The notes under the pieces were generated by a model. That model was given only the letters and a program-made list of their open reading frames with translations. It did no database searches and had not been told where the DNA came from. 64,000 bases of DNA, from NCBI RefSeq assembly GCF_003121985.1, contig NZ_QEWP01000006.1, forward strand, positions 62,001-126,000, read 5' to 3'. Positions 2,064 to 63,329 of this stretch are shown piece after piece (the stretch's first letter is position 1; each line of letters starts with the position of its first letter). The translations under genes and the position numbers were made by a program. The stretch is from Marinilabilia rubra. Its GTDB lineage: Bacteria > Bacteroidota > Bacteroidia > Bacteroidales > Marinilabiliaceae.

Positions 2064-3824
2064 TTATCTGAGAACCAAAAACAAAATTAAGAAAAAGATA
2101 AAAAAGCCGATTCCAACAAACTCCCAGCGGCGGAGTAATGCTTCTGCCGCGGAACTGATTCTTGATGTTCGCTTACTGTCTGAAATTATATAAAAGATTT
2201 TCTCAGGGCCTGGAATCGACTGAATACCGGATTCCAGCAAAGAAATCCCTTTACGCAATGGTTTTGCAACCGCAGCTCCGGCAAAGAGAATCAGGTGAAT
2301 AAAATCCCCCGGTGGCAGGGATGGTTTCTTCGTTGGCCAAACGTTAAGGTGAGTAAACTTCAGAGTAAAAGCCATAATAATTACGCCTATACTGATTGTC
2401 CAAAATGCGGTCCAGTTTTTCTGCAGATTCATAAAAAAGTCCATTATCCCTTTTGCTCCTGAAATGTGGGAAAGTAATTCCCCGGGCAACAGGCCCGGGG
2501 ACATAGTCCACCATCCTCCAGCCAACAAAAGAAGCACCCATGGCAGAAAAAAAGCAGGTGCCACATTACCTGAAGGTGCCTTTATCCGGTACAAAAGGTG
2601 TAAGAAACGACTCAGCAATAAAGCTGTGGTGACAGCAGACAGTTTAAGTAAAAGCATAAAAGTCTGAGCCCCCGGAAGGCTTGTTTCGCCAAGGAAGGTT
2701 TTCACCAAAGATTTGGTCCAGAGCCCCCCTGTAAGAGGTCCTCCGGCTATGGACAAAACGCCCAGTCCTAAACCCACCCACATGAGAATTCGCCACGCTC
2801 CTCCTACTTTGGCCGGAAGTGCTGTACCCATAAACAAGAGAGCTTTGGCTGTTCCGTGATTAAACGCATAAAGGGCAATTGCAGGAAGGAGCAACTCCGG
2901 GGGAATGTCACCGTACAAACCAATGCCCAACAGTACGGTCATAACGCCCATTTGGCTGATGCTTGAATAGGCAAGATTGGCTTTTGGATCAACCTGGGTC
3001 AGACCATAAATCGCAGCCCCAAAAACTGCCGTAAAGCCCAGGGAGACCATTAGCAAACTCAGGAAAGTCCATTCTACCAATCCCACCGGTGCAAGGTGCA
3101 TCCACCCAACCAGGCCGGCTTTGATCATGGCCCCGCTAAGGACTGCACTGGCCGGAGCAGGAGCTGCCGGGTGCGCCAGAGGAAGCCAGAAATACAGGGG
3201 TATTGCCCCAACCTTTACTCCGAAGCCTATCAGACCCAGTAAAAAAATGAACGGGCCATCGGGAGATTCTGCCAGTGCCGGTGGAATATCGGCGAGTAGC
3301 ATACTGCCGGCACTTTCCACAGCGAGATACAATGCAGTAATAAGAAACAACTCTCCAATGATGGCCATTACCAGGTAAATATTGGCCGCCCGCCTGGCTG
3401 ATGGGGTACGGCTGTGGATGACCAACCCGTAAGAAGCAAAGGTCATCAAGGCAAAGAAGGTATAGAAGGATGCCACATCAGCGGAGATCAGCAGACCGAA
3501 ATTCCCTGCCATAGTGAGGCCAAAATAAAATGAAAACTCACCTCTCCGGGCATCGTCTTTCAGGTAGGAACCTGAAAAAAGACCGGCTGTGGCCCATAGA
3601 ATGGCGGTCAGCAGAAGGATAATTCTACGGGGCGTATCAAGAGAAAAGTGCGATTCCATTAAAAACCACGGTGCCGTGACTCCGGACACCTCCACCAATC
3701 CTAGCCAAAGGGCAGGTAAAGCAGCACCCGCCAGAATAAATCCGGAACCCCGTCGCCCGGCGGGCAGGAATACGGCGAAAAAAGCGGCCAACAGCGGTAA
3801 TACTATGGTGAGAAACCAGATCAT
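2064..3824 (-). CDS. Third NuoL/M-like antiporter subunit (Mrp operon), lacking TM5 glutamate
   Basis: 586-aa polytopic protein of the Proton_antipo_M family (NuoL/M/N, MrpA/D). It keeps the TM7 lysine in FGVKVGAIPLYFWLP (K204), the following HPAAPAPASAVLSG loop and a second lysine in AMIKAGLVGW. At the position of the conserved TM5 glutamate it has alanine: SADVASFYTFFALM (A125) against FFIFYEF (E140) and LFVTIEV (E144) in the two upstream paralogues. The C-terminal extension after about residue 400 is poorly conserved and ends in a TM segment, FVGIGFFIFFLILFLVL. It overlaps the preceding gene by 4 nt (ATGA), so the two are probably translationally coupled. Role: membrane subunit of the antiporter; whether it moves protons is uncertain. 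Confidence 0.85.
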   Translation of the reverse strand: MIWFLTIVLPLLAAFFAVFLPAGRRGSGFILAGAALPALWLGLVEVSGVTAPWFLMESHFSLDTPRRIILLLTAILWATAGLFSGSYLKDDARRGEFSFYFGLTMAGNFGLLISADVASFYTFFALMTFASYGLVIHSRTPSARRAANIYLVMAIIGELFLITALYLAVESAGSMLLADIPPALAESPDGPFIFLLGLIGFGVKVGAIPLYFWLPLAHPAAPAPASAVLSGAMIKAGLVGWMHLAPVGLVEWTFLSLLMVSLGFTAVFGAAIYGLTQVDPKANLAYSSISQMGVMTVLLGIGLYGDIPPELLLPAIALYAFNHGTAKALLFMGTALPAKVGGAWRILMWVGLGLGVLSIAGGPLTGGLWTKSLVKTFLGETSLPGAQTFMLLLKLSAVTTALLLSRFLHLLYRIKAPSGNVAPAFFLPWVLLLLAGGWWTMSPGLLPGELLSHISGAKGIMDFFMNLQKNWTAFWTISIGVIIMAFTLKFTHLNVWPTKKPSLPPGDFIHLILFAGAAVAKPLRKGISLLESGIQSIPGPEKIFYIISDSKRTSRISSAAEALLRRWEFVGIGFFIFFLILFLVLR

Positions 3825-18994: not shown

Positions 18995-19028
18995 TTTGCC
19001 CCCTGCCTGCCGGCAGGCAGGGGGGCAA
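18995..19028. repeat. GC-rich palindrome
   Basis: Near-perfect inverted repeat centred on CTGCCTGCCGGCAGGCAG, flanked by GCCCCC and GGGGGGC. No coding content. It shares the CTGCCGGCAG-type core with the array at 20441. Confidence 0.7.
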
Positions 19029-19130
19029 ATTAAAATAACCCCGGGTACACCTGCCCGGGGTTGAAAATAAGGATATAATTGGTCTCTGAAAGAGGCCAAC
19101 ATTTCATAATTCATTAAAATACCCGGAATA

Positions 19131-19232
19131 GTTGGCCCCCTGTCAGGGACCCTGCAACTCCGAACTCTACTCCCCGGGCTTATCTGCCCGGGGTTATCTA
19201 AATTTGCCCCTTATCAGGGACGTAATGGATTA
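19131..19232. repeat. Hairpin-rich repeat right of the glycan operon (copy B)
   Basis: GTTGGCCCCCTGTCAGGGACC, a CCCCGGGC...GCCCGGGG hairpin, then TTGCCCCTTATCAGGGAC and TAATGGATTAG, paralleling 9581-9685. A partial third unit (CCCCGGG...CCCGGGG, TTGGTCTCTGAAAGAGGCCAAC) lies just upstream at about 19037-19100. From 19233 to 19640 I see no gene. Confidence 0.65.
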
Positions 19233-19663
19233 GTATTGTATGCATCATGTAGCTGTTTTTAAACAATCTTTCAGAACAAAAACTACTAAAATTTTATCCT
19301 AAAGAATTCCCCAAGTACAAAGCTAATTGTGATTCCAAACAAACATCCTTGCACCTCATTCTTGTTAAATAACCCCCAATGTGCTGATGCGTAGAAATAT
19401 AAGTGTTTTTCAGCAGCTCCTTAACAACCTGACATCAATCACTTTTGCCAAACAATCAACGTCATTAGTCAAAGTTTTATTGACATTTATCAGGAATAGG
19501 AATTGATTTGCAAACGAAAATCTTTTATTTATTAATCCTAAAATTCCAAAATGCCCACCGTCTCTTTTCCTACCCTGAATTATGGCATAGCTGAAATGAA
19601 AAACGTTCAGCTCTCTGGTGATGAGCCGGAAGGGTTGAGGTTTTTTAAAAAAAATTTTTTGTT

Positions 19664-20368
19664 ATGTCAAATTCTCAGGACTACCAGGCCAAACTGGCCG
19701 ATGCAAAAGCCATTTCAGGCGACCAAATTCAAACTCCTTACATGCCGGCAGGCATTTATGTCCAGGAAGCCGAAGACCTGGCACGCTGGGCCACCAAAGA
19801 TCTGGCACAACTGGCTGCTTCCGGACTGTCTGAACATTATGTGACCGATATCCCTGCACGCGCAGGAGCGCTCAGGGAAGTACAGTCGATGTGGGCAGAA
19901 GAAAGGCGCGACCAAAAGGACGCCGAAAAAGAGTGGAAACTAAAAGCGCCCCTGGCTTATGAGTATCGCGACGATATGATAGACACCCTGCGCTATGCCT
20001 TCCGGAAAAATGAGTCCCTGTTGATGAATGTATCTAAGATTGCCGATGGGAGCGGCCACGCCGACATGATCCAGGATCTGAATGATTCAGCGGTATTGGC
20101 CCGTTCCAATCCCGAAGCCATGCAGGCCATAGGAGTAGATGAATCATTCTGGCAAAAAGGCGCCCAACTCTCAGATGAAATGGCGGACTTAAGAGCCCGT
20201 GCCAATGGGGAAAAATACGCAGACAATAAAACAAAGGAGTTGCGTGACCAAATGTACACACTTCTTAAGCAGGCCGTGGATGAAGTTAAAGACTGCGGCA
20301 AATATGTCTTCCGAAAAGACAAAGACAGACTGCAAGGTTATTATAGCCGCTATAATCAGAAGCATTAA
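19664..20368 (+). CDS. Unrecognised 234-aa protein associated with a 21-bp repeat array
   Basis: Hydrophilic protein without signal peptide or TM helix, rich in Ala, Asp, Lys and Arg and probably mostly helical. Readable landmarks: ISGDQIQTPYMPAGIYVQEAEDLARWA near the N-terminus, DIPARAGALREVQSMWAEER, DEMADLRARANGEKYADNKTK, and a C-terminus YTLLKQAVDEVKDCGKYVFR...LQGYYSRYNQKH. I do not recognise the family. The ATG follows by 3 nt an unusual T6-A8-T6 tract (19641-19660). A terminator (20403-20432) and then a GC-rich 21-bp-period array (20441-20735) follow. A frameshifted remnant of a homologue lies at 63145-63329 beside a second such array: ANLRAKANG and YTLTKELAEEV...FVF...YTRYN match its C-terminal third. 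Confidence 0.75.
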   Translation: MSNSQDYQAKLADAKAISGDQIQTPYMPAGIYVQEAEDLARWATKDLAQLAASGLSEHYVTDIPARAGALREVQSMWAEERRDQKDAEKEWKLKAPLAYEYRDDMIDTLRYAFRKNESLLMNVSKIADGSGHADMIQDLNDSAVLARSNPEAMQAIGVDESFWQKGAQLSDEMADLRARANGEKYADNKTKELRDQMYTLLKQAVDEVKDCGKYVFRKDKDRLQGYYSRYNQKH

Positions 20369-20402
20369 GCTTGTTTTAATCGTTAGATTTTCTATCAGCA
20401 TT

Positions 20403-20432
20403 AAGGGTTCCGGAGCTTCCGGGACCCTTTTT
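20403..20432 (+). terminator. Terminator between the 234-aa gene and the array
   Basis: AAGGGTTCCGGA / TTCCGGGACCCTT stem followed by five T. It separates the gene from the array, so the array need not be part of the mRNA. Confidence 0.8.
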
Positions 20433-20440
20433 GTTTGCCC

Positions 20441-20735
20441 CTGCCGGTGAATTGCACCTCCCTGCCAGTGAATTGCACCTCCCTGCCGGTGAATTGCACC
20501 TCCCTGCCGGGGAATTGCGCCTTCCTGCCCGGCAGGAGAGCACAGTTCACCCGGCAGGAGAAGGTAATGCACCGGCAGGAGACGATAATGCACCGGCAGG
20601 AGATGCCCCTCCGGCGGCAGGAGAGTGTGCTGATCCGGCAGGAGCACATGATCAGGTGGCAGGGGCAACAATTGTTGCGACAGGAGCAGGTGATGAGGCG
20701 GCAGGCGGCGGTGGCGGGGCGGCAGGAGTGTAAAG
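20441..20735. repeat. 21-bp-period inverted repeat array (array 1)
   Basis: Left arm: four near-identical units (20441, 20462, 20483, 20504) of CTGCCGGTGAATTGCACC plus TCC. Centre: CTGCCCGGCAG at about 20525. Right arm: about ten units in opposite orientation, each starting GGCAGGAG or a close variant (20531, 20553, then every 21 bp at 20574, 20595, 20616, 20637, 20658, 20679, 20700, 20721). The rest of each right-arm unit (about 13 nt) varies, the first units keeping AATGCACC. 21 bp equals two helical turns and seven codons. Because of this, several frames on both strands stay open with heptad peptides (for example PAGELHL), which I treat as a by-product. Confidence 0.85.
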
Positions 20736-20851
20736 ATGTGTTAACACAAACCCCCGATGTACTTTTCAAATTTCCCTTACCTGACAAGGTTTAAAAAAAC
20801 GAAAATTGTATCTTTCGGAATTAATTACTAAAAATTCGATTATTTAAGCTC

Positions 20852-23665
20852 ATGTCTGCCAAACTCAACCAGAATCCCGAACAGATTGCAAGAGATAAGA
20901 TTGATACCACACTAACAGATGCCGGGTGGATAGTGCAATCAAAACACAAGGTAGATCTTTGGGCCGGCAGCGGGGTGGCTGTCAGGGAGTACCAGACAGA
21001 CGTGGGACCGGCAGATTATGTATTGTTTGTTGACCGGAAACCCGCCGGAATAATTGAGGCAAAGAGAGAAGAAGAAGGGCATCGTTTAACAGTCGTCGAA
21101 GATCAATCCAAAGGATATGCGGAAGCAACGCTAAAGTATCTCAACAACGATCCGCTACCATTTGTATATGAAAGTACGGGTGTCGTAACCCGGTTTACCG
21201 ATTACAGGGATCCCAAACCCAGGGGTAGAAATGTTTTCAGTTTCCACAGACCGGAGACCATCCGCGAATGGTTGAAAAAGGGCAAAAGCCTCAGAACCGC
21301 ATTAAATGGCCTGCCATCACTTGATACCACAGGACTTCGGAGGGCTCAGGTCAAAGCGATTGAAAAACTTGAAGACTCTTTCAGGAATAACCGGCCACGT
21401 GCCTTAATACAAATGGCAACCGGTGCAGGAAAAACCTTCACTGCTGCCACTTTTATTTACCGCTTGCTGAAATTTGCCGATGCCAAAAGGGTTTTATTTC
21501 TGGTGGACACGAAAAACCTTGGTGAGCAGGCCGAACAGGAATTCATGACATTTCAGCCGGTAGATGACAACCGGAAGTTCACAGAACTATACACCGTACA
21601 AAGACTGGCGTCCAGCTATATTTCTTCTGACAGCCAGGTTTGTATTTCAACCATTCAGCGGTTGTACTCTATTCTCAAAGGCGAAGAGCTGGATGAAACT
21701 GCTGAAGAAAGCAACCCCAACGAAAGCACCTGGATGCAAAAACAGTTGGGCAAAAGAAAGGCCGTGCCGGTTGAATACTCCGAAAAAGTTCCCATCGAAA
21801 AGTTTGATTTCATTGTAATCGATGAGTGTCACCGGTCCATTTACAACCTTTGGAAGCAGGTGCTGGATTATTTTGATGCGTTTCTGGTTGGTCTGACAGC
21901 CACACCTGACAAGCGAACATTTGGTTTCTTCAATGAAAATGTGGTAAGTCAGTACACGTATGAGCAATCGGTCACCGATGGTGTCAACGTGCCTTATGAT
22001 GTTTACTCCATTGAAACCGACATCAGCAATAAAGGAGAGGTTGTTCAGGCAGGTTGGTTTGTTGACCGCCGGGACAAACTAACCAGAGAGAAACGCTGGC
22101 AGCAAGAGGATGAAGATACCGAATACTCGAAAAACGATCTGGACAGAAAAGTCGTTAACCCCAGCCAGATCAGAAATATCATTCGCGAATATAAAAGAGC
22201 TTTACAGACTGAGATATTCCCAAAAAGATTCAATGAAAACGGTGAATACGAAGTGCCCAAGACATTGGTATTTGCCAAAACTGACAGTCATGCAGATGAT
22301 ATCATCCGGATCATCAGAGAGGAATTTAATGAAGGGAACGACTTCTGCAAGAAGGTTACTTACCGGATTGACGAGGATCCAAAGTCGGTATTGAATCGTT
22401 TCCGGAATTCTTACTATCCCCGCATTGCCGTAACGGTTGATATGATTGCCACAGGAACGGATGTGAAACCGCTGGAGGTATTGTTGTTTATGCGCGATGT
22501 AAAAAGCACCAACTACTTTGAACAGATGAAAGGGCGCGGAACCCGCACTATTGATAATGATAAACTGATGCAGGTAACCCGCATGGCCAATACCAAAACG
22601 CATTTTGTGATTGTGGATGCCATCGGTGCCACCAGGTCCAAGAAGACAGACAGCCGCCCCCTTGAGCGAAAACCATCTGTCAAAATGAAAGACCTCCTGG
22701 GGGCGATCACCATGGGCGTTGAAGAAGAAGACCTGTTCCTGTCTCTTTCCAACCGGCTTATCCGGCTTGAAAAACAAATCACGCCAAAAGAAAAGGAAAA
22801 GCTGCTGGAACATTCAGGGGGTAAGAACCTAAAACAGATGGCTAAGGAACTGATTAATGCTTTTGACCCGGACACCATTAAAGAACGAACTCAGGAAAAA
22901 ATATCACAAACCCCAATTGAAGAAAGGACTCCCTCAAAAGAAGAAGGGGCCAGGAAAGAAGCGCATCAGGAGCTGATACGTGAGGCTGCAAGTACTTTCA
23001 ACGGAGAGTTGAATGAATATCTGGAAAATGTAAGACAGGAGCATGAACAAATCATTGATCACATCAACATTGATTCGGTTGTAAACTCGGGGTGGGACCA
23101 TTTCACCATCGACAAAGCCAAAGAAACCGTTCATGATTTTTCGGAATACCTGAAAGCGCATAAAGATGAAATCAGAGCGCTGAGCATATTTTACAACCAA
23201 CCTTACCAGCGCCGGGACATTACTTTCAAAATGATCAAAGAGGTGATGGAAAAGATCCGGCTGGAAAAACCCAAACTGGCTCCCGATTATGTCTGGAATG
23301 CTTATGCCACCATCGAAAAGGTTAAAAGCAACCAACCCAAAGATGAGCTAACAGCGCTGGTTTCGTTGATTCGACGAGCCTGTGGCATCGATAAACAATT
23401 GAAGCCGTTTGATAAAACCATCAATGAAAATTTTCAGGACTGGATTTTTAAACAAAACGCCGGAAAGCATAACCGTTTTACGCCCGATCAGATGGAGTGG
23501 CTGCGCATGATTAAAGACCATGTGTTGAGCAGTTATCATATTGATATGGACGACCTGGATTATACGCCTTTTGATTCCCGGGGAGGACGTGGCAAAATGT
23601 ATCAGCTCTTTGGCAATGAAATGAATGACCTGATCGACGAACTTAATAAAATATTGGTGGCTTAA
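20852..23665 (+). CDS. hsdR: Type I restriction enzyme, R subunit
   Basis: 937 aa. An N-terminal PD-(D/E)xK nuclease is visible (D55 in GPADYVLF, E69-A-K71 in IIEAKRE). The SF2 translocase motor has Walker A MATGAGKT (188-195), DECH box (324-327), motif III LTATPDK (about 349-355) and the late motifs DMIATGTDVKPLEVLLFM and QMKGRGTRT. The C-terminal helical part (about 640-937) corresponds to the EcoEI-type R-subunit C domain, which docks on the M2S core. Start ATG 20852 gives the normal N-terminus for this subfamily. The motor pulls DNA and cleaves at distant sites when the HsdS target is unmethylated. It is separated from hsdS by three small genes. Confidence 0.95.
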   Translation: MSAKLNQNPEQIARDKIDTTLTDAGWIVQSKHKVDLWAGSGVAVREYQTDVGPADYVLFVDRKPAGIIEAKREEEGHRLTVVEDQSKGYAEATLKYLNNDPLPFVYESTGVVTRFTDYRDPKPRGRNVFSFHRPETIREWLKKGKSLRTALNGLPSLDTTGLRRAQVKAIEKLEDSFRNNRPRALIQMATGAGKTFTAATFIYRLLKFADAKRVLFLVDTKNLGEQAEQEFMTFQPVDDNRKFTELYTVQRLASSYISSDSQVCISTIQRLYSILKGEELDETAEESNPNESTWMQKQLGKRKAVPVEYSEKVPIEKFDFIVIDECHRSIYNLWKQVLDYFDAFLVGLTATPDKRTFGFFNENVVSQYTYEQSVTDGVNVPYDVYSIETDISNKGEVVQAGWFVDRRDKLTREKRWQQEDEDTEYSKNDLDRKVVNPSQIRNIIREYKRALQTEIFPKRFNENGEYEVPKTLVFAKTDSHADDIIRIIREEFNEGNDFCKKVTYRIDEDPKSVLNRFRNSYYPRIAVTVDMIATGTDVKPLEVLLFMRDVKSTNYFEQMKGRGTRTIDNDKLMQVTRMANTKTHFVIVDAIGATRSKKTDSRPLERKPSVKMKDLLGAITMGVEEEDLFLSLSNRLIRLEKQITPKEKEKLLEHSGGKNLKQMAKELINAFDPDTIKERTQEKISQTPIEERTPSKEEGARKEAHQELIREAASTFNGELNEYLENVRQEHEQIIDHINIDSVVNSGWDHFTIDKAKETVHDFSEYLKAHKDEIRALSIFYNQPYQRRDITFKMIKEVMEKIRLEKPKLAPDYVWNAYATIEKVKSNQPKDELTALVSLIRRACGIDKQLKPFDKTINENFQDWIFKQNAGKHNRFTPDQMEWLRMIKDHVLSSYHIDMDDLDYTPFDSRGGRGKMYQLFGNEMNDLIDELNKILVA

Positions 23666-29886: not shown

Positions 29887-32355
29887 ATGAAAAAATTTTA
29901 TTTCTTATTAGCTCTATTTCTGTGCGTAAGCATATCATATGCACAAACCTCCAAAACAATTAATGTGGAGCAAGCTGGAACTCTTAAAACCTTGCTTTCA
30001 GAAACGGAGCTATCAACAGTAACCAATCTCACAGTAACAGGAAATATTGATGCGAGAGATGTAAAAACGATGCGGGATGATATGCCCTTGTTGGCAATAC
30101 TTGACTTAGAAAAAACAAACATCCAATATTACAGAGGCAGTTATGGTACTGATACATATATGACTGGTTTTGCAAATCAAATGCCAGATTATTCATTTTA
30201 TAACAGATCAACTAACAAGTCTAAAGTCACCCTTTCTTCCATTACCCTTCCTAATTCAATTACATCAATAGGAAAAAATGCTTTTAGGGGTTGTACTGGT
30301 CTATCATCTATTCATAGTCCTAATGAAATACCTCCAAGTGTTGATAATTCAACTTTTTACCCAAGCTTTAAGAATACCTCTTTTAAAATTGTATTTGTTC
30401 CATCAAATTCAGTTGCAGCATATAACGATTCTCCAGATTGGAGTAATTTTATTATTGCAACTGATAAACATGTAACGATTAATGTTCCTACAGCAGGCTC
30501 GATGGCGGCAACCATCATAAACAATAATGCAGGACCTTTGGATTCTATTACTCACTTAAAAGTCACGGGTAACATTAATACTATTGACATCAATCATATG
30601 AATTCAAATATGAAAACTCTTACTTTTCTTGATCTCACAGATGTTTCCATCACTTCCAACACATTTCCAGAAAAAGCGTTTCAAGATAAACTTACATTAA
30701 ATTCAATTGGCTTACCAAAGTCTTTACTTAGTATTGGCAATTATTCCTTCGCTGGTTGTACAAATCTCAAAGATGACCTTACTCTTCCCAATAAATTAAC
30801 ATCAATTGGGAATTATGCCTTTCAAAATTGCAGTGGATTTTCTGGGGAGTTAACTTTCCCTAATACATTAATATCAATTGGAGATTATGCTTTTTATAAC
30901 TGTAAAAACATTTCAGGTGAATTAAATCTGCCTAATACAATAACATCAATTGGTCACAGCGCTTTTGTAAATTGCAATTCCCTTACAGGTAACTTAATTC
31001 TACCAGACTCAATATCATATATTGGAAACAGTGTTTTTAATCAATGCAGTGGTTTAACTGGAAGCTTAACTTTACCAAATACAATAACTTCAATTGGAGA
31101 TTATGCTTTTCAAGGCTGCAGTGGATTTACTGGTGAGCTAACTCTGCCAGAATCAATAGTATCTATTGGACATAGTGTTTTTAAAGATTGTAGTGGCTTA
31201 ACTGGCGAATTAACTCTACCTAATACAATAACTTCTATTGGATATTATGCTTTTTATAGTTGCAGTGGATTTACTGGAAAATTAACGCTTCCTGAAACGA
31301 TTACTTCTATTGGAGATAGAGCTTTTTATAATTGCAGTGGCTTAACTGAACTATATATGACTAGAACTCTCAATAATATTGGTAGCAATTCTTTCGGTGG
31401 TTGTAAAAATATAGAACTAATAAAGTCCGCTAATCCAACACCACCAACCATTTACGAAAGCACTTTCACCGGTATTCCAATAGAAAGCTGCATGGTCGAT
31501 GTACCAACGGGCTCAGTGTCTGCCTATCAATCCGCAGATTACTGGAATAGCTTTATTTTTTATAATACGGAAGCAATCTATAATTTGGATGCATCGGAGA
31601 CTGTATGTTCCAATCAATTACCTTACATCTTTGGGAACCAAGAACTGATTGAGAATGGTACATATACCCAAAGATTCCAAACTTCGAATGGAACCGACAG
31701 TATTGTAAAGTTAGATTTAACTATTGCCTCAGCATATAATTTAACGGAAGAGGTAACTACTTGCCATGGGGAGCTCCCCTATACTTTTGGGAGTCAGGAG
31801 CTACTCAAAAGTGGCACTTACACCGAAACTTTCCAGACCGTCAACGGGTGTGATAGTACTGTGACATTAAATCTTACCGTTAATTCTGTAAATACCGGAA
31901 TAATAAAGGAAGAAAATATACTAACTGCTCAGGCAACAGATGCCAGCTATCAATGGTTAAATTGTGACAATGGTTTTGCTCCAATTATAGGAGAAACTAA
32001 CCAGACCTTCATTCCTAATAAAAATGGCAACTATGCTGTTGAAATTACCGAAAACGGTTGTACGGATATTTCTGGTTGTTTTGAGATCTTTTTTACAGAA
32101 ATTTCAGAAAATAGTTATGGAGCAGAAACTGCTGTTTATCCAAATCCTACAACAGGCAAAGTAACTATTAGCCTAGGAAATAATTATCCTAAAACAGTCT
32201 CGGGCCTACATGATGTAGGAGGCAACTTAATCCAGAAATTTATATTTAAAGACAAGAGTGAAATCGATATAGACATCAACACAAATCCGGGGGTTTATTT
32301 TATTCATTTGCAATCAGGAAACCAGAAAGCTATTTTAAAAGTCATAAAAAAATAA
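29887..32355 (+). CDS. BspA-type leucine-rich-repeat protein with T9SS sorting domain
   Basis: 822 aa. The signal peptide ends at SISYAQ. Residues about 100-550 hold LRR_5-type repeats of 23 residues, with LTLPNTITSIGDYAFQGCSG as a representative. Two modules of about 45 residues follow (SETVCSNQLPYIFGNQEL..., EVTTCHGELPYTFGSQEL...GCDSTVTLNLTV) of the kind seen in gliding-motility/adhesin proteins. The C-terminal T9SS domain starts at YPNPTTGKVTISLG and ends QKAILKVIKK. It is therefore probably exported through the outer membrane and attached to the surface as an adhesin. Several LRR units are also nearly identical in DNA, showing recent repeat expansion. Confidence 0.9.
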   Translation: MKKFYFLLALFLCVSISYAQTSKTINVEQAGTLKTLLSETELSTVTNLTVTGNIDARDVKTMRDDMPLLAILDLEKTNIQYYRGSYGTDTYMTGFANQMPDYSFYNRSTNKSKVTLSSITLPNSITSIGKNAFRGCTGLSSIHSPNEIPPSVDNSTFYPSFKNTSFKIVFVPSNSVAAYNDSPDWSNFIIATDKHVTINVPTAGSMAATIINNNAGPLDSITHLKVTGNINTIDINHMNSNMKTLTFLDLTDVSITSNTFPEKAFQDKLTLNSIGLPKSLLSIGNYSFAGCTNLKDDLTLPNKLTSIGNYAFQNCSGFSGELTFPNTLISIGDYAFYNCKNISGELNLPNTITSIGHSAFVNCNSLTGNLILPDSISYIGNSVFNQCSGLTGSLTLPNTITSIGDYAFQGCSGFTGELTLPESIVSIGHSVFKDCSGLTGELTLPNTITSIGYYAFYSCSGFTGKLTLPETITSIGDRAFYNCSGLTELYMTRTLNNIGSNSFGGCKNIELIKSANPTPPTIYESTFTGIPIESCMVDVPTGSVSAYQSADYWNSFIFYNTEAIYNLDASETVCSNQLPYIFGNQELIENGTYTQRFQTSNGTDSIVKLDLTIASAYNLTEEVTTCHGELPYTFGSQELLKSGTYTETFQTVNGCDSTVTLNLTVNSVNTGIIKEENILTAQATDASYQWLNCDNGFAPIIGETNQTFIPNKNGNYAVEITENGCTDISGCFEIFFTEISENSYGAETAVYPNPTTGKVTISLGNNYPKTVSGLHDVGGNLIQKFIFKDKSEIDIDINTNPGVYFIHLQSGNQKAILKVIKK

Positions 32356-62635: not shown

Positions 62636-62764
62636 GGTGCAAAGAAACGAAAAATTAGTGGTTGAAGGGAAAAGGGTTGAAGGGTGATGGGGGAAACTGG
62701 AAGAAGAGAAAACAGGGGGATAAGCAAAATTATTCAAAATATAATTCTCCCGTCCAGTTACATC

Positions 62765-63060
62765 CCCCTCATGGCACCCACGGATGCCTCCGGTTCATTG
62801 CAACCCCTCCCGGGCGGATGCAATTTGGCTCCCGGGCAATTACAAATGCTTTCAGGCTGTTTGCAAGGCCTCCCGGGCGGCAACAAATTGGCTCAGGCCG
62901 GCTGCAACCCCCTTCCGGGCGGCTTACACCCCCTCGAGGTTGAGGTCCACCCCCCCCAGGCTGCAAACAATGCACCTCAGGGGCTTAAACCTTTGCTTCC
63001 TGCCTTGTGCAACCCCTCCCGGGGACATACAACACTCTTCCTGCTTGAGACAATCAGGCA
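62765..63060. repeat. Degenerate 21-bp-period array (array 2)
   Basis: GC-rich stretch in which CTCCCGGGCGG or variants (CTTTCAGGC, CTCAGGCCGG, CTTCCGGGCGG, CTCAGGGGC) recur about every 21 bp (steps of 20-22), each usually followed after a few bases by TGCAA. Examples at about 62807, 62829, 62849, 62870, 62892, 62912, 62976 and 63017. The core resembles TTGCACCTCCCTGCCGG of array 1, and the period is the same. Read 3' of the gene remnant at 63145, it lies in the same place as array 1: past the gene's terminator. Confidence 0.7.
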
Positions 63061-63084: not shown

Positions 63085-63115
63085 AAAAAAAGAGCCCGTT
63101 GCCAAAACCGGACTC
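63085..63115 (-). terminator. Terminator after the gene remnant
   Basis: On the minus strand GAGTCCGGTT / AACGGGCTC forms a stem followed by seven T. It separates the remnant at 63145 from array 2, as at 20403-20432. Confidence 0.75.
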
Positions 63116-63144
63116 CTGTCTTCAACAGCCTTTAAAACAAAAAT

Positions 63145-63329
63145 CTAATTATATCTGGTATAAAAACCGTCCAAGGTCTCGGGATCATCATTAAAAACAA
63201 AGCGGGCACCATCACGCACTTCCTCGGCCAACTCCTTGGTCAGTGTATAAATGAATCCGAATCACACGTTCTTCACTAATCTCCGAGGTGCCGTTAGCCT
63301 TGGCTCTGAGATTGGCCTTTGTGCAGGGC
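63145..63329 (-). pseudogene. 3' remnant of a homologue of the 234-aa protein (19664)
   Basis: Minus-strand reading ends at TAG 63145-63147 with YTLTKELAEEVRDGARFVF, then DPETLDGFYTRYN. The protein at 19664 ends YTLLKQAVDEVKDCGKYVFR...LQGYYSRYN. Just upstream, in another frame, lies ANLRAKANG, matching ADLRARANG at the right distance. The two pieces join through a one-base frameshift at about 63251-63262. Upstream of about 63329 no similarity to the 234-aa protein continues, so the gene is truncated as well as shifted. The C-terminus was read by eye, about half the residues being identical. Confidence 0.75.

Follow-up and report, generated by a model that had tools for sequence, protein, structure and literature searches.

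Marinilabilia rubra belongs to the Bacteroidota, and the window analyzed here is a 64,000-nucleotide stretch of its genome (contig NZ_QEWP01000006.1, positions 62,001 to 126,000). The element in question is a unit in which a gene for a helical protein is followed by a terminator-like hairpin and then by an array of short words repeated about every 21 bp. At the first locus the gene, taken from the list of open reading frames (ORFs), occupies 19664-20368 on the plus strand and encodes P0001, an acidic protein of 234 amino acids that is modeled as all-helical and has no Pfam match. Between the gene and the array lies a G+C-rich hairpin followed by a run of T residues (about 20403-20433, plus strand), which by eye resembles an intrinsic terminator. 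The array (array 1) consists of two arms of opposite orientation joined at a palindrome, a feature absent from the earlier sequence-only reading of this DNA. The left arm (20439-20530, minus strand) holds five inverted words that read CCTGCC on the plus strand and stand 21 bp apart, while the right arm (20530-20735, plus strand) holds ten words CGGCAGG(AG) that stand 21-22 bp apart. The arms meet at a central 13-bp palindrome, CCTGCCCGGCAGG, at 20524-20536 (coordinates counted from the stop codon at 20368). Tandem Repeats Finder (TRF) reports the array as two repeats of period 21 (20439-20529 and 20529-20603), and the words extend past these calls, with five inverted words from 20440 and ten forward words at 20530-20726, at gaps of 21-22 bp.

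The sequence-only reading held that the order of gene, terminator and array occurs twice in the window, the second time beside a decayed homologue, and both statements are borne out. Array 1 has a periodicity score of 90, whereas none of its 60 dinucleotide shuffles scored more than 10. Array 2, although degenerate, is above chance: its best period is 40, and its score of 16 exceeds the 12 that its shuffles reached at most. The second locus lies on the minus strand and begins with the C-terminal remnant of another gene of the P0001 family, hereafter A1 (63148-63314; residues 197-231 by tblastn, 46% identity), followed by a hairpin and T run that look terminator-like by eye (63085-63120) and by array 2, whose word is about GCCCGGGAGG (62747-63040). 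DNA homology to a copy on contig C23 of the same genome (contigs of the M. rubra genome, G000, carry C numbers) extends up to 63314; from 63314 to 62747 the locus is 89% identical over 571 bp to the intact unit at C23:379506, including the end of the gene, the terminator and the array. Array 2 itself is a copy of C23:380311-380598 and is also related to an array without a gene at C45:83228-83515. The genome contains six matches to P0001 at E <= 1, two of which are pieces of one decayed copy. Two further units of gene and array are intact (C23:379506 and C1:4829), and a decayed A1 gene at C1:548296 has no visible array. At least three arrays in this genome lack an A1 gene: one on C5, a related copy of array 1 of the window, one on C13 that is related in the same way to the array of the C1 unit, and one on C45 so related to the array of the C23 unit.

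The linkage of gene and array extends far beyond this genome. A pattern scan of 84,980 species genomes yielded 56 A1 loci, and these, together with five places in the M. rubra genome and 18 in its relatives, provided up to 400 bp past the stop codon of 79 A1 genes or gene fragments. Three regions were left unscored (L052, of 151 bp; L057, masked; L062, with no sequence), and each of the remaining 76 was compared with 60 dinucleotide shuffles, using a periodicity score that was free to choose any period of 14-40 bp. Sixty of the 76 regions scored above all of their shuffles, and 58 had a best period of 20-22 or 40. A first control set, 170 ORFs of other genes from these loci and from the window, had eight above their shuffles and one with such a period; the corresponding numbers were ten and one for 185 ORFs with at least 200 bp of ORF-free sequence downstream (from the same loci and 400 kb of the M. 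rubra genome). The two control sets overlap in loci and have their single positive place in common. Words in a chain of three or more were found in 69 of 77 regions by a word finder that has no chance control. The gene and its downstream array are thus linked far beyond chance. The check that the sequence-only reading had proposed, a search for downstream periodicity at homologues of the gene against other genes, came out in its favor (58/76 compared with 1/170 and 1/185). It had also counted arrays equally frequent after unrelated genes as evidence against a unit, and this objection applies in part: arrays do follow unrelated genes, but rarely after any given one. At one locus (L034, downstream of position 3774) a second A1 gene starts where the array would be, and by eye no array is seen between these tandem genes. 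The unit recurs over many genera of the Bacteroidota and in records of metagenome-assembled genomes labeled as Aminicenantes, KSB1, Neomarinimicrobiota, Gammaproteobacteria and Deltaproteobacteria, labels that are given as deposited and may include mis-binned contigs.

Each array repeats a single word of 6-8 bp, and the word differs from locus to locus (GCAGGA, AACAGG, GGAAAGA, GTAGGAA, GTGGAAA, CCCGGGA, GTGATAT, GGATAAG, TGCAAAG and others). Of 434 gaps between consecutive words, 286 are 21 bp long, 112 are 20, 33 are 22, two are 19 and one is 23. The mean gap is 20.81 bp (standard deviation 0.57) and the means of individual arrays range from 20.25 to 21.50 bp (60 arrays), a spread that is bounded by construction since, apart from skipped units, gaps outside 19-23 bp are not accepted by the word finder. 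The mean corresponds to about two turns of B-DNA. In arms with varying gaps, those of 20 and 21 bp alternate in a way that keeps the register better than permutations of the same gaps do: 26 of 36 arms fall below the permutation mean (0/1000 in a sum test); when four arrays resembling dimer duplications are omitted, 22 of 32 arms do so (3/1000), and in both versions related arms are not independent, so that shared descent contributes. The content of A+T is highest on both flanks at a distance of 9-12 bp from the word center (59 arrays), which places word and AT-rich stretch in alternation about once per helical turn. A coding repeat was considered and set aside, since the gaps vary between 20, 21 and 22 bp; by eye, some units also hold in-frame stops.

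Arrays occur in forward, reverse and two-arm forms, and such freedom of orientation is expected of double-stranded sites. In a set of 30 arrays selected as CAGG-type (14 linked to a gene and 16 not), 27 contain a near-perfect 13-bp core, made of two half-words 3 bp apart and mismatched in some cases, at which the arms meet; a stricter test of its position is passed by 24. At most two words point against an outward-pointing rule in 28 of the 30, a rule that has no chance control. A ladder hairpin was tried for the two-arm arrays and rejected: left and right gaps are equal in 46 of 78 pairs, only slightly more than the 37.6 expected, and shared ancestry could account for the difference.

Many arrays stand without the gene, and it is these orphan arrays that qualify the claim that the two parts are inherited together. 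The association is far stronger than chance, as described above, but not constant. Matches to a CAGGR pattern are present in 11 of 11 genomes that hold gene-linked arrays, and the seven whose places were listed have at least two arrays each; the pattern is loose and some of its hits resemble coding heptads (for example in G116), and no count is drawn from its wide scan. From six of these seven genomes 17 arrays were fetched, of which two adjoin an A1 gene (L273 and L283) and 15 do not. With the addition of six gene-linked arrays (at L012, L016, L020, L024, L031 and L056), 15 of 23 arrays in the seven relatives are orphans, as judged with the A1 profile in a sample of 17 that omitted single matches, a few two-match places and four unlisted genomes. 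Draconibacterium orientale, for example, has at least five chromosomal arrays, one of which is at an A1 gene (L016). Another 25 places were picked by eye, including arrays of other builds and three orphans of the M. rubra genome and excluding the known gene-linked arrays of G015; searched for A1 and for a second, 157-amino-acid family (A2), they comprise one place beside an A1 gene (L188), one beside an A2 gene (L189) and 23 beside neither. When 20 stretches of the M. rubra genome, picked by position and 400 kb in total, were scanned with a sliding window, six places were above their shuffles, two of them with a period of 20 or 40: an array on C12 (L180) with no A1 gene seen, and one at C56:16900 (L175) upstream of a DUF6261 gene. 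Orphan arrays sit between divergent, tandem and convergent genes alike. Two further sets of arrays were met in this survey. G046, a genome of the same order without an A1 match, has several related two-arm or one-arm arrays (C51, C62, C154 and C172) whose best pieces are 80-89% identical, and arrays at G032:C4:63984 and in G108 (L350, L191 and L353) are near-perfect 21- or 22-bp repeats with no A1 or A2 neighbor that are possibly plain minisatellites of another kind.

The dispersal of these arrays raises the question of whether they are selfish elements. In such an explanation, the array would be a mobile minisatellite resembling repetitive extragenic palindromic (REP) sequences or miniature inverted-repeat transposable elements (MITEs), the unit of gene and array would be its autonomous or parent form with a protein that aids its spread, and the spacing would be a property of copying or of a single-stranded hairpin formed by two-arm arrays. 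Homology between paralogous arrays ends close to the array limits in three pairs (C1/C13, 85.5% over 235 bp; C23/C45, 84% over 289 bp; array 1 of the window/C5, 67% over 295 bp), which indicates that the array spreads on its own, and array-only copies are found in new places. The presence of two or more arrays in each of the seven genomes is in keeping with this. Locus 2 is also absent from the same interval in G002, since the flanking matches there are only 78 bp apart compared with 752 bp in the window; in five other relatives the interval is 288-902 bp long and no array is seen by eye. Two-arm arrays fold better than their shuffles in all five cases tested (z of -3.7 to -6.4 on the gene strand), as inverted arms must. 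However, many gene-linked arrays are of a single orientation and, of 12 such arrays tested, most show no folding (z above -2 on the gene strand in nine, with three exceptions), A1 matches no recombinase or transposase family in Pfam, NCBIfam or PHROGs, and the gene is absent from the plasmid records, phage records and viral contigs searched. A look by eye at the limits of array 2 and of the C45 array found no terminal inverted repeats or target-site duplications. The sequence-only reading had suggested a mobile cassette; the dispersal of the arrays fits that suggestion, while no terminal repeats, target duplications or recombinase speak for it.

Two known kinds of dispersed repeats bear on this comparison. 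REP sequences and their paired form (REPINs), which belong with the transposases called RAYTs, have dispersed intergenic copies, inverted halves, a source gene beside some copies and genome-specific classes, according to the parts of the source drawn on here (PMC3116915). Two-arm arrays likewise form dispersed intergenic inverted pairs, whereas one-orientation arrays do not, and the A1 arrays share with REPs a gene next to some copies and sequence classes specific to a genome. They differ from what that source describes in being rows at a fixed two-turn period rather than single or paired palindromes, and in place of the Y1 transposase that accompanies REPs, A1 matches neither a transposase nor any other enzyme family. 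In Porphyromonas gingivalis, the BrickBuilt and 464/PgRS MITEs are dispersed, intergenic tandem repeats of 23 or 41 nt, and BrickBuilt elements consist of repeats without spacers together with a leader, a tail and IS5-like terminal inverted repeats, with no remnant of a transposase, as far as the portion of the report used here describes them (PMC4596501). The Bacteroidota host and the dispersal are common to both, and 41 nt is close to two units of the present arrays. Unlike BrickBuilt as described there, A1 arrays have drifting spacers and a linked gene family, and terminal repeats are unseen by eye.

A difference between the words and the spacers also bears on a selfish origin. The orphan arrays L269 of D. 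orientale and L279 of Draconibacterium mangrovi sit between the same genes, and between them 62 word bases are the same and two differ, compared with 131 and 62 spacer bases (p 2.8e-7). Paralogous pairs behave similarly: words are 79 same and 11 different and spacers 115 and 88 between the arrays of the window (array 1) and C5, and the numbers are 70 and 2 compared with 148 and 57 for C1 and C13. In weaker pairs they are 36 and 4 compared with 225 and 82 (C23/C45) and 32 and 0 compared with 247 and 34 (C23/array 2). Columns counted as word wherever either member of a pair has the word, a choice that gives a mild bias toward conservation. Words are thus kept better than spacers in these pairs, which suggests that the word matters even far from an A1 gene. 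At the orthologous orphan array it is the words and not whole units that are conserved, which argues against a selfish dispersed element. That explanation is nonetheless the rival left most alive by the evidence, although it is considered rather unlikely.

The AlphaFold2 model of P0001 has a mean predicted local distance difference test score of 93.9, is all helix and contains one helix of 50 residues (63-112). The NCBIfam family PQLLE_fam (NF052641) matches P0001 with 24.9 bits, below its curated cut-off of 80; with a threshold of E <= 0.1 it is matched by 44 of 53 aligned A1 homologues, the lowest E being 6.2e-10, and it is probably a distant relative of A1. The true PQLLE member of the M. 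rubra genome (C12:267837) has no array in the 450 bp after it, by eye. The word turns over faster than the A1 protein, to judge from a quick tree of the proteins, and words cluster by genus: among 149 relatives, arrays of the type GTGAKRT occur in four of the 14 that belong to one genus, with a single match in two of the four, and in two of the other 135. The possibility that A1 itself reads the word was explored and rejected, as residues that split arrays of the GCAGG type from those of the ACAGG type are no more common than in other splits.

Other protein families are also found with such arrays. At G005:C15 a gene for a 157-amino-acid protein (A2) is followed by a 21-bp array, and an array of period 20-22 or 40 is present downstream of 14 of 29 members; of 43 matches 30 became loci, and one of these lacked a readable ORF. 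A2 shows one weak Pfam match (E 0.008) among 19 aligned members and none at E <= 0.01 in the others, and a fold search gave no match at E <= 0.001. The A1 and A2 profiles show no similarity (hhalign probability 0.2%), and the models of both proteins are all-helical, each including a single helix of 50-55 residues. The same architecture of gene, terminator, two-turn array, often a 13-bp core, and orphans is seen in both families, although no kinship between them is detectable. Two of the five DUF6261 genes of the M. rubra genome (C30:12521, L196; C56:17590, L199) have upstream arrays of about 41 bp, or two units, that are above their shuffles, whereas the other three copies have no array above shuffles. 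DUF6261 is possibly a third protein family tied to phased arrays.

A further explanation sees the arrays as cis-acting elements at the ends of genes, either roadblocks or bidirectional terminators, that would regulate the region downstream of the gene itself. Gene-linked arrays do follow terminator-like hairpins, and by eye the left arm is part of the terminator-like region at several loci. Such a local transcription boundary does not account for the close link to particular protein families, and it fits poorly with orphans that lie between divergent genes, that is, at promoters (L267 and L274), or with the arrays upstream of the two DUF6261 genes. It is regarded as improbable.

The sequence-only reading also proposed that the array is a structured RNA acting with the protein, and this proposal is not supported. 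RNA hairpin units had come under consideration because of CCC-word-GGG flanks at L030 and L033, and they were rejected: no diagonal of covariation is seen within units (59 arrays, 505 units), in a test where isolated cells reach |z| 4 and the pooling of different word registers lowers power. A broader form of the idea is that the transcribed array is a sponge or a source of short guides, with the word bound by protein and spacers of 13-15 nt as the guides. GGA is found within many words (by eye), which recalls the GGA-rich sponge RNAs. The combination of a constant word, variable spacers and words specific to a locus recalls guide arrays such as TIGR (PMC12045711). In TIGR-Tas, a protein with a Nop domain works with 36-nt RNAs that contain two repeats and two spacers, and arrays most often have 5 to 15 units, according to the sections of that report used here (PMC12045711). 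The likeness consists of a protein gene beside the array and a repeat that is constant within a locus and variable between loci; the A1 arrays differ from those so described in a unit of about 20.8 bp with a single word, in an orientation that is not fixed and in common orphans. P0001 has no Pfam match to a Nop domain, and none is present among the 22 families listed for 53 A1 members. Against an RNA element stand also the terminator-like hairpin between gene and array in the window, the free orientation of the array relative to the gene, the lack of folding in most one-orientation arrays, spacers that drift by substitution at the orthologous array, and the absence of any Rfam family at gathering score in 19500-20850. 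An RNA element is therefore considered quite improbable.

The preferred reading is that these are phased arrays of double-stranded DNA sites, that the word is read at each site and that the A1 protein takes part in the resulting structure; a probability of about 0.42 is assigned to it. A spacing of two turns, a stronger constraint on the word than on the spacer, free orientation and a palindromic core together suggest rows of protein sites on one face of double-stranded DNA. All sites of an array would face the same side of the helix, each word being separated by one turn from an AT-rich stretch. A putative protein would read the word of every site and build a regular nucleoprotein structure, which in many arrays would start at the central palindrome. 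The A1 protein is probably not that reader, as even close homologues differ in their words and most of the proteins are acidic; it would most likely serve as a scaffold, or as a bridge that joins array-bound complexes to each other and links dispersed arrays. The unit of gene and array might then be a source unit, and orphan arrays might be further docking places on the chromosome that serve in its organization, segregation or silencing. Binding, partner and purpose are what we infer here. The sequence-only reading had also suggested that the protein binds the array, which may be the case, although the protein is acidic and no residue in it tracks the word.

Several results weigh against the preferred reading. 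Sixteen of 76 A1 homologues lack an array that scores above shuffles, several of them with visible words. The A1 family has a median isoelectric point of 4.93 (range 4.52-9.49) and a median net charge of -10 (70 proteins), and neither the PDB nor a viral library gives a fold match at E <= 0.001. Homologues that are close in a quick tree of 70 proteins have different words, as with AACAGGA at L012, GCAGGA at L016 and GGAAAGA at L018, or CGGGTAA at L032 and GGAAAGA at L040. No residue tracks the word: three alignment columns separate the two word types compared with up to seven over 35 splits of the eight proteins, and one of the three is the last, gapped column. The better conservation of words comes from one orthologous and four paralogous pairs, two of which are weak (p 0.02 and 0.03), and the dispersal of arrays also fits a selfish element. 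Intrinsic curvature was likewise rejected as a signal; predicted curvature is above shuffles (mean z 1.79 over 57 arrays), but a repeat of this period would show that whatever its sequence.

Known arrays of DNA sites differ from the present ones. Among the papers listed from the literature searched, which covered few subscription papers and no preprints, none describes a system with such units, in agreement with the sequence-only reading. A CRISPR array has a constant repeat of about 23-50 bp and spacers of similar length, whereas A1 arrays have a word of 6-8 bp, a word gap of 19-23 bp and spacers of 13-15 bp that are duplicated in some arrays; in line with the sequence-only reading, they are not CRISPR-like in form, though no search for cas genes was run. 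Iterons and plasmid centromeres are rows of short, helix-phased protein sites beside the gene of the binding protein, and the A1 arrays resemble them in a spacing that is in phase with the helix and keeps its register. They differ in having several dispersed copies, in the lack of a match to a replication or partition family and in a word that outpaces the protein.

The evidence points to an undescribed protein-DNA system in the Bacteroidota. It would, more specifically, be a new class of bacterial chromosomal satellite, made of helically phased arrays with a short, fast-evolving word that does not vary inside a locus and is found again in other members of the genus. Several unrelated families of long-helix proteins would serve these satellites, each encoded next to one array and acting at the dispersed ones; this extension is doubtful. 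If correct, it would be a bacterial counterpart of the fast-evolving centromere satellites with their conserved, sequence-tolerant proteins. Should the arrays be bound by protein, a major phylum would have an unrecognized chromosome-organizing system, and should they move, they would be mobile minisatellites of a new class that have a partner protein. Sites can be predicted base by base from so strong a signal, and binding, transcription and mobility are therefore directly testable.

The surroundings of locus 1 contain other features. Upstream of the gene for P0001, part of 19020-19415 recurs elsewhere in the genome (84-95% identical) in a nest of other dispersed repeats. Immediately past array 1, at 20852-23665, lies a gene for an EcoEI-like HsdR protein of 937 amino acids. 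Farther along the window, TRF reports tandem repeats of 72 and 144 bp at 30920-31348, which are likely to be coding and to belong to a large protein (ORF 29887-32355).

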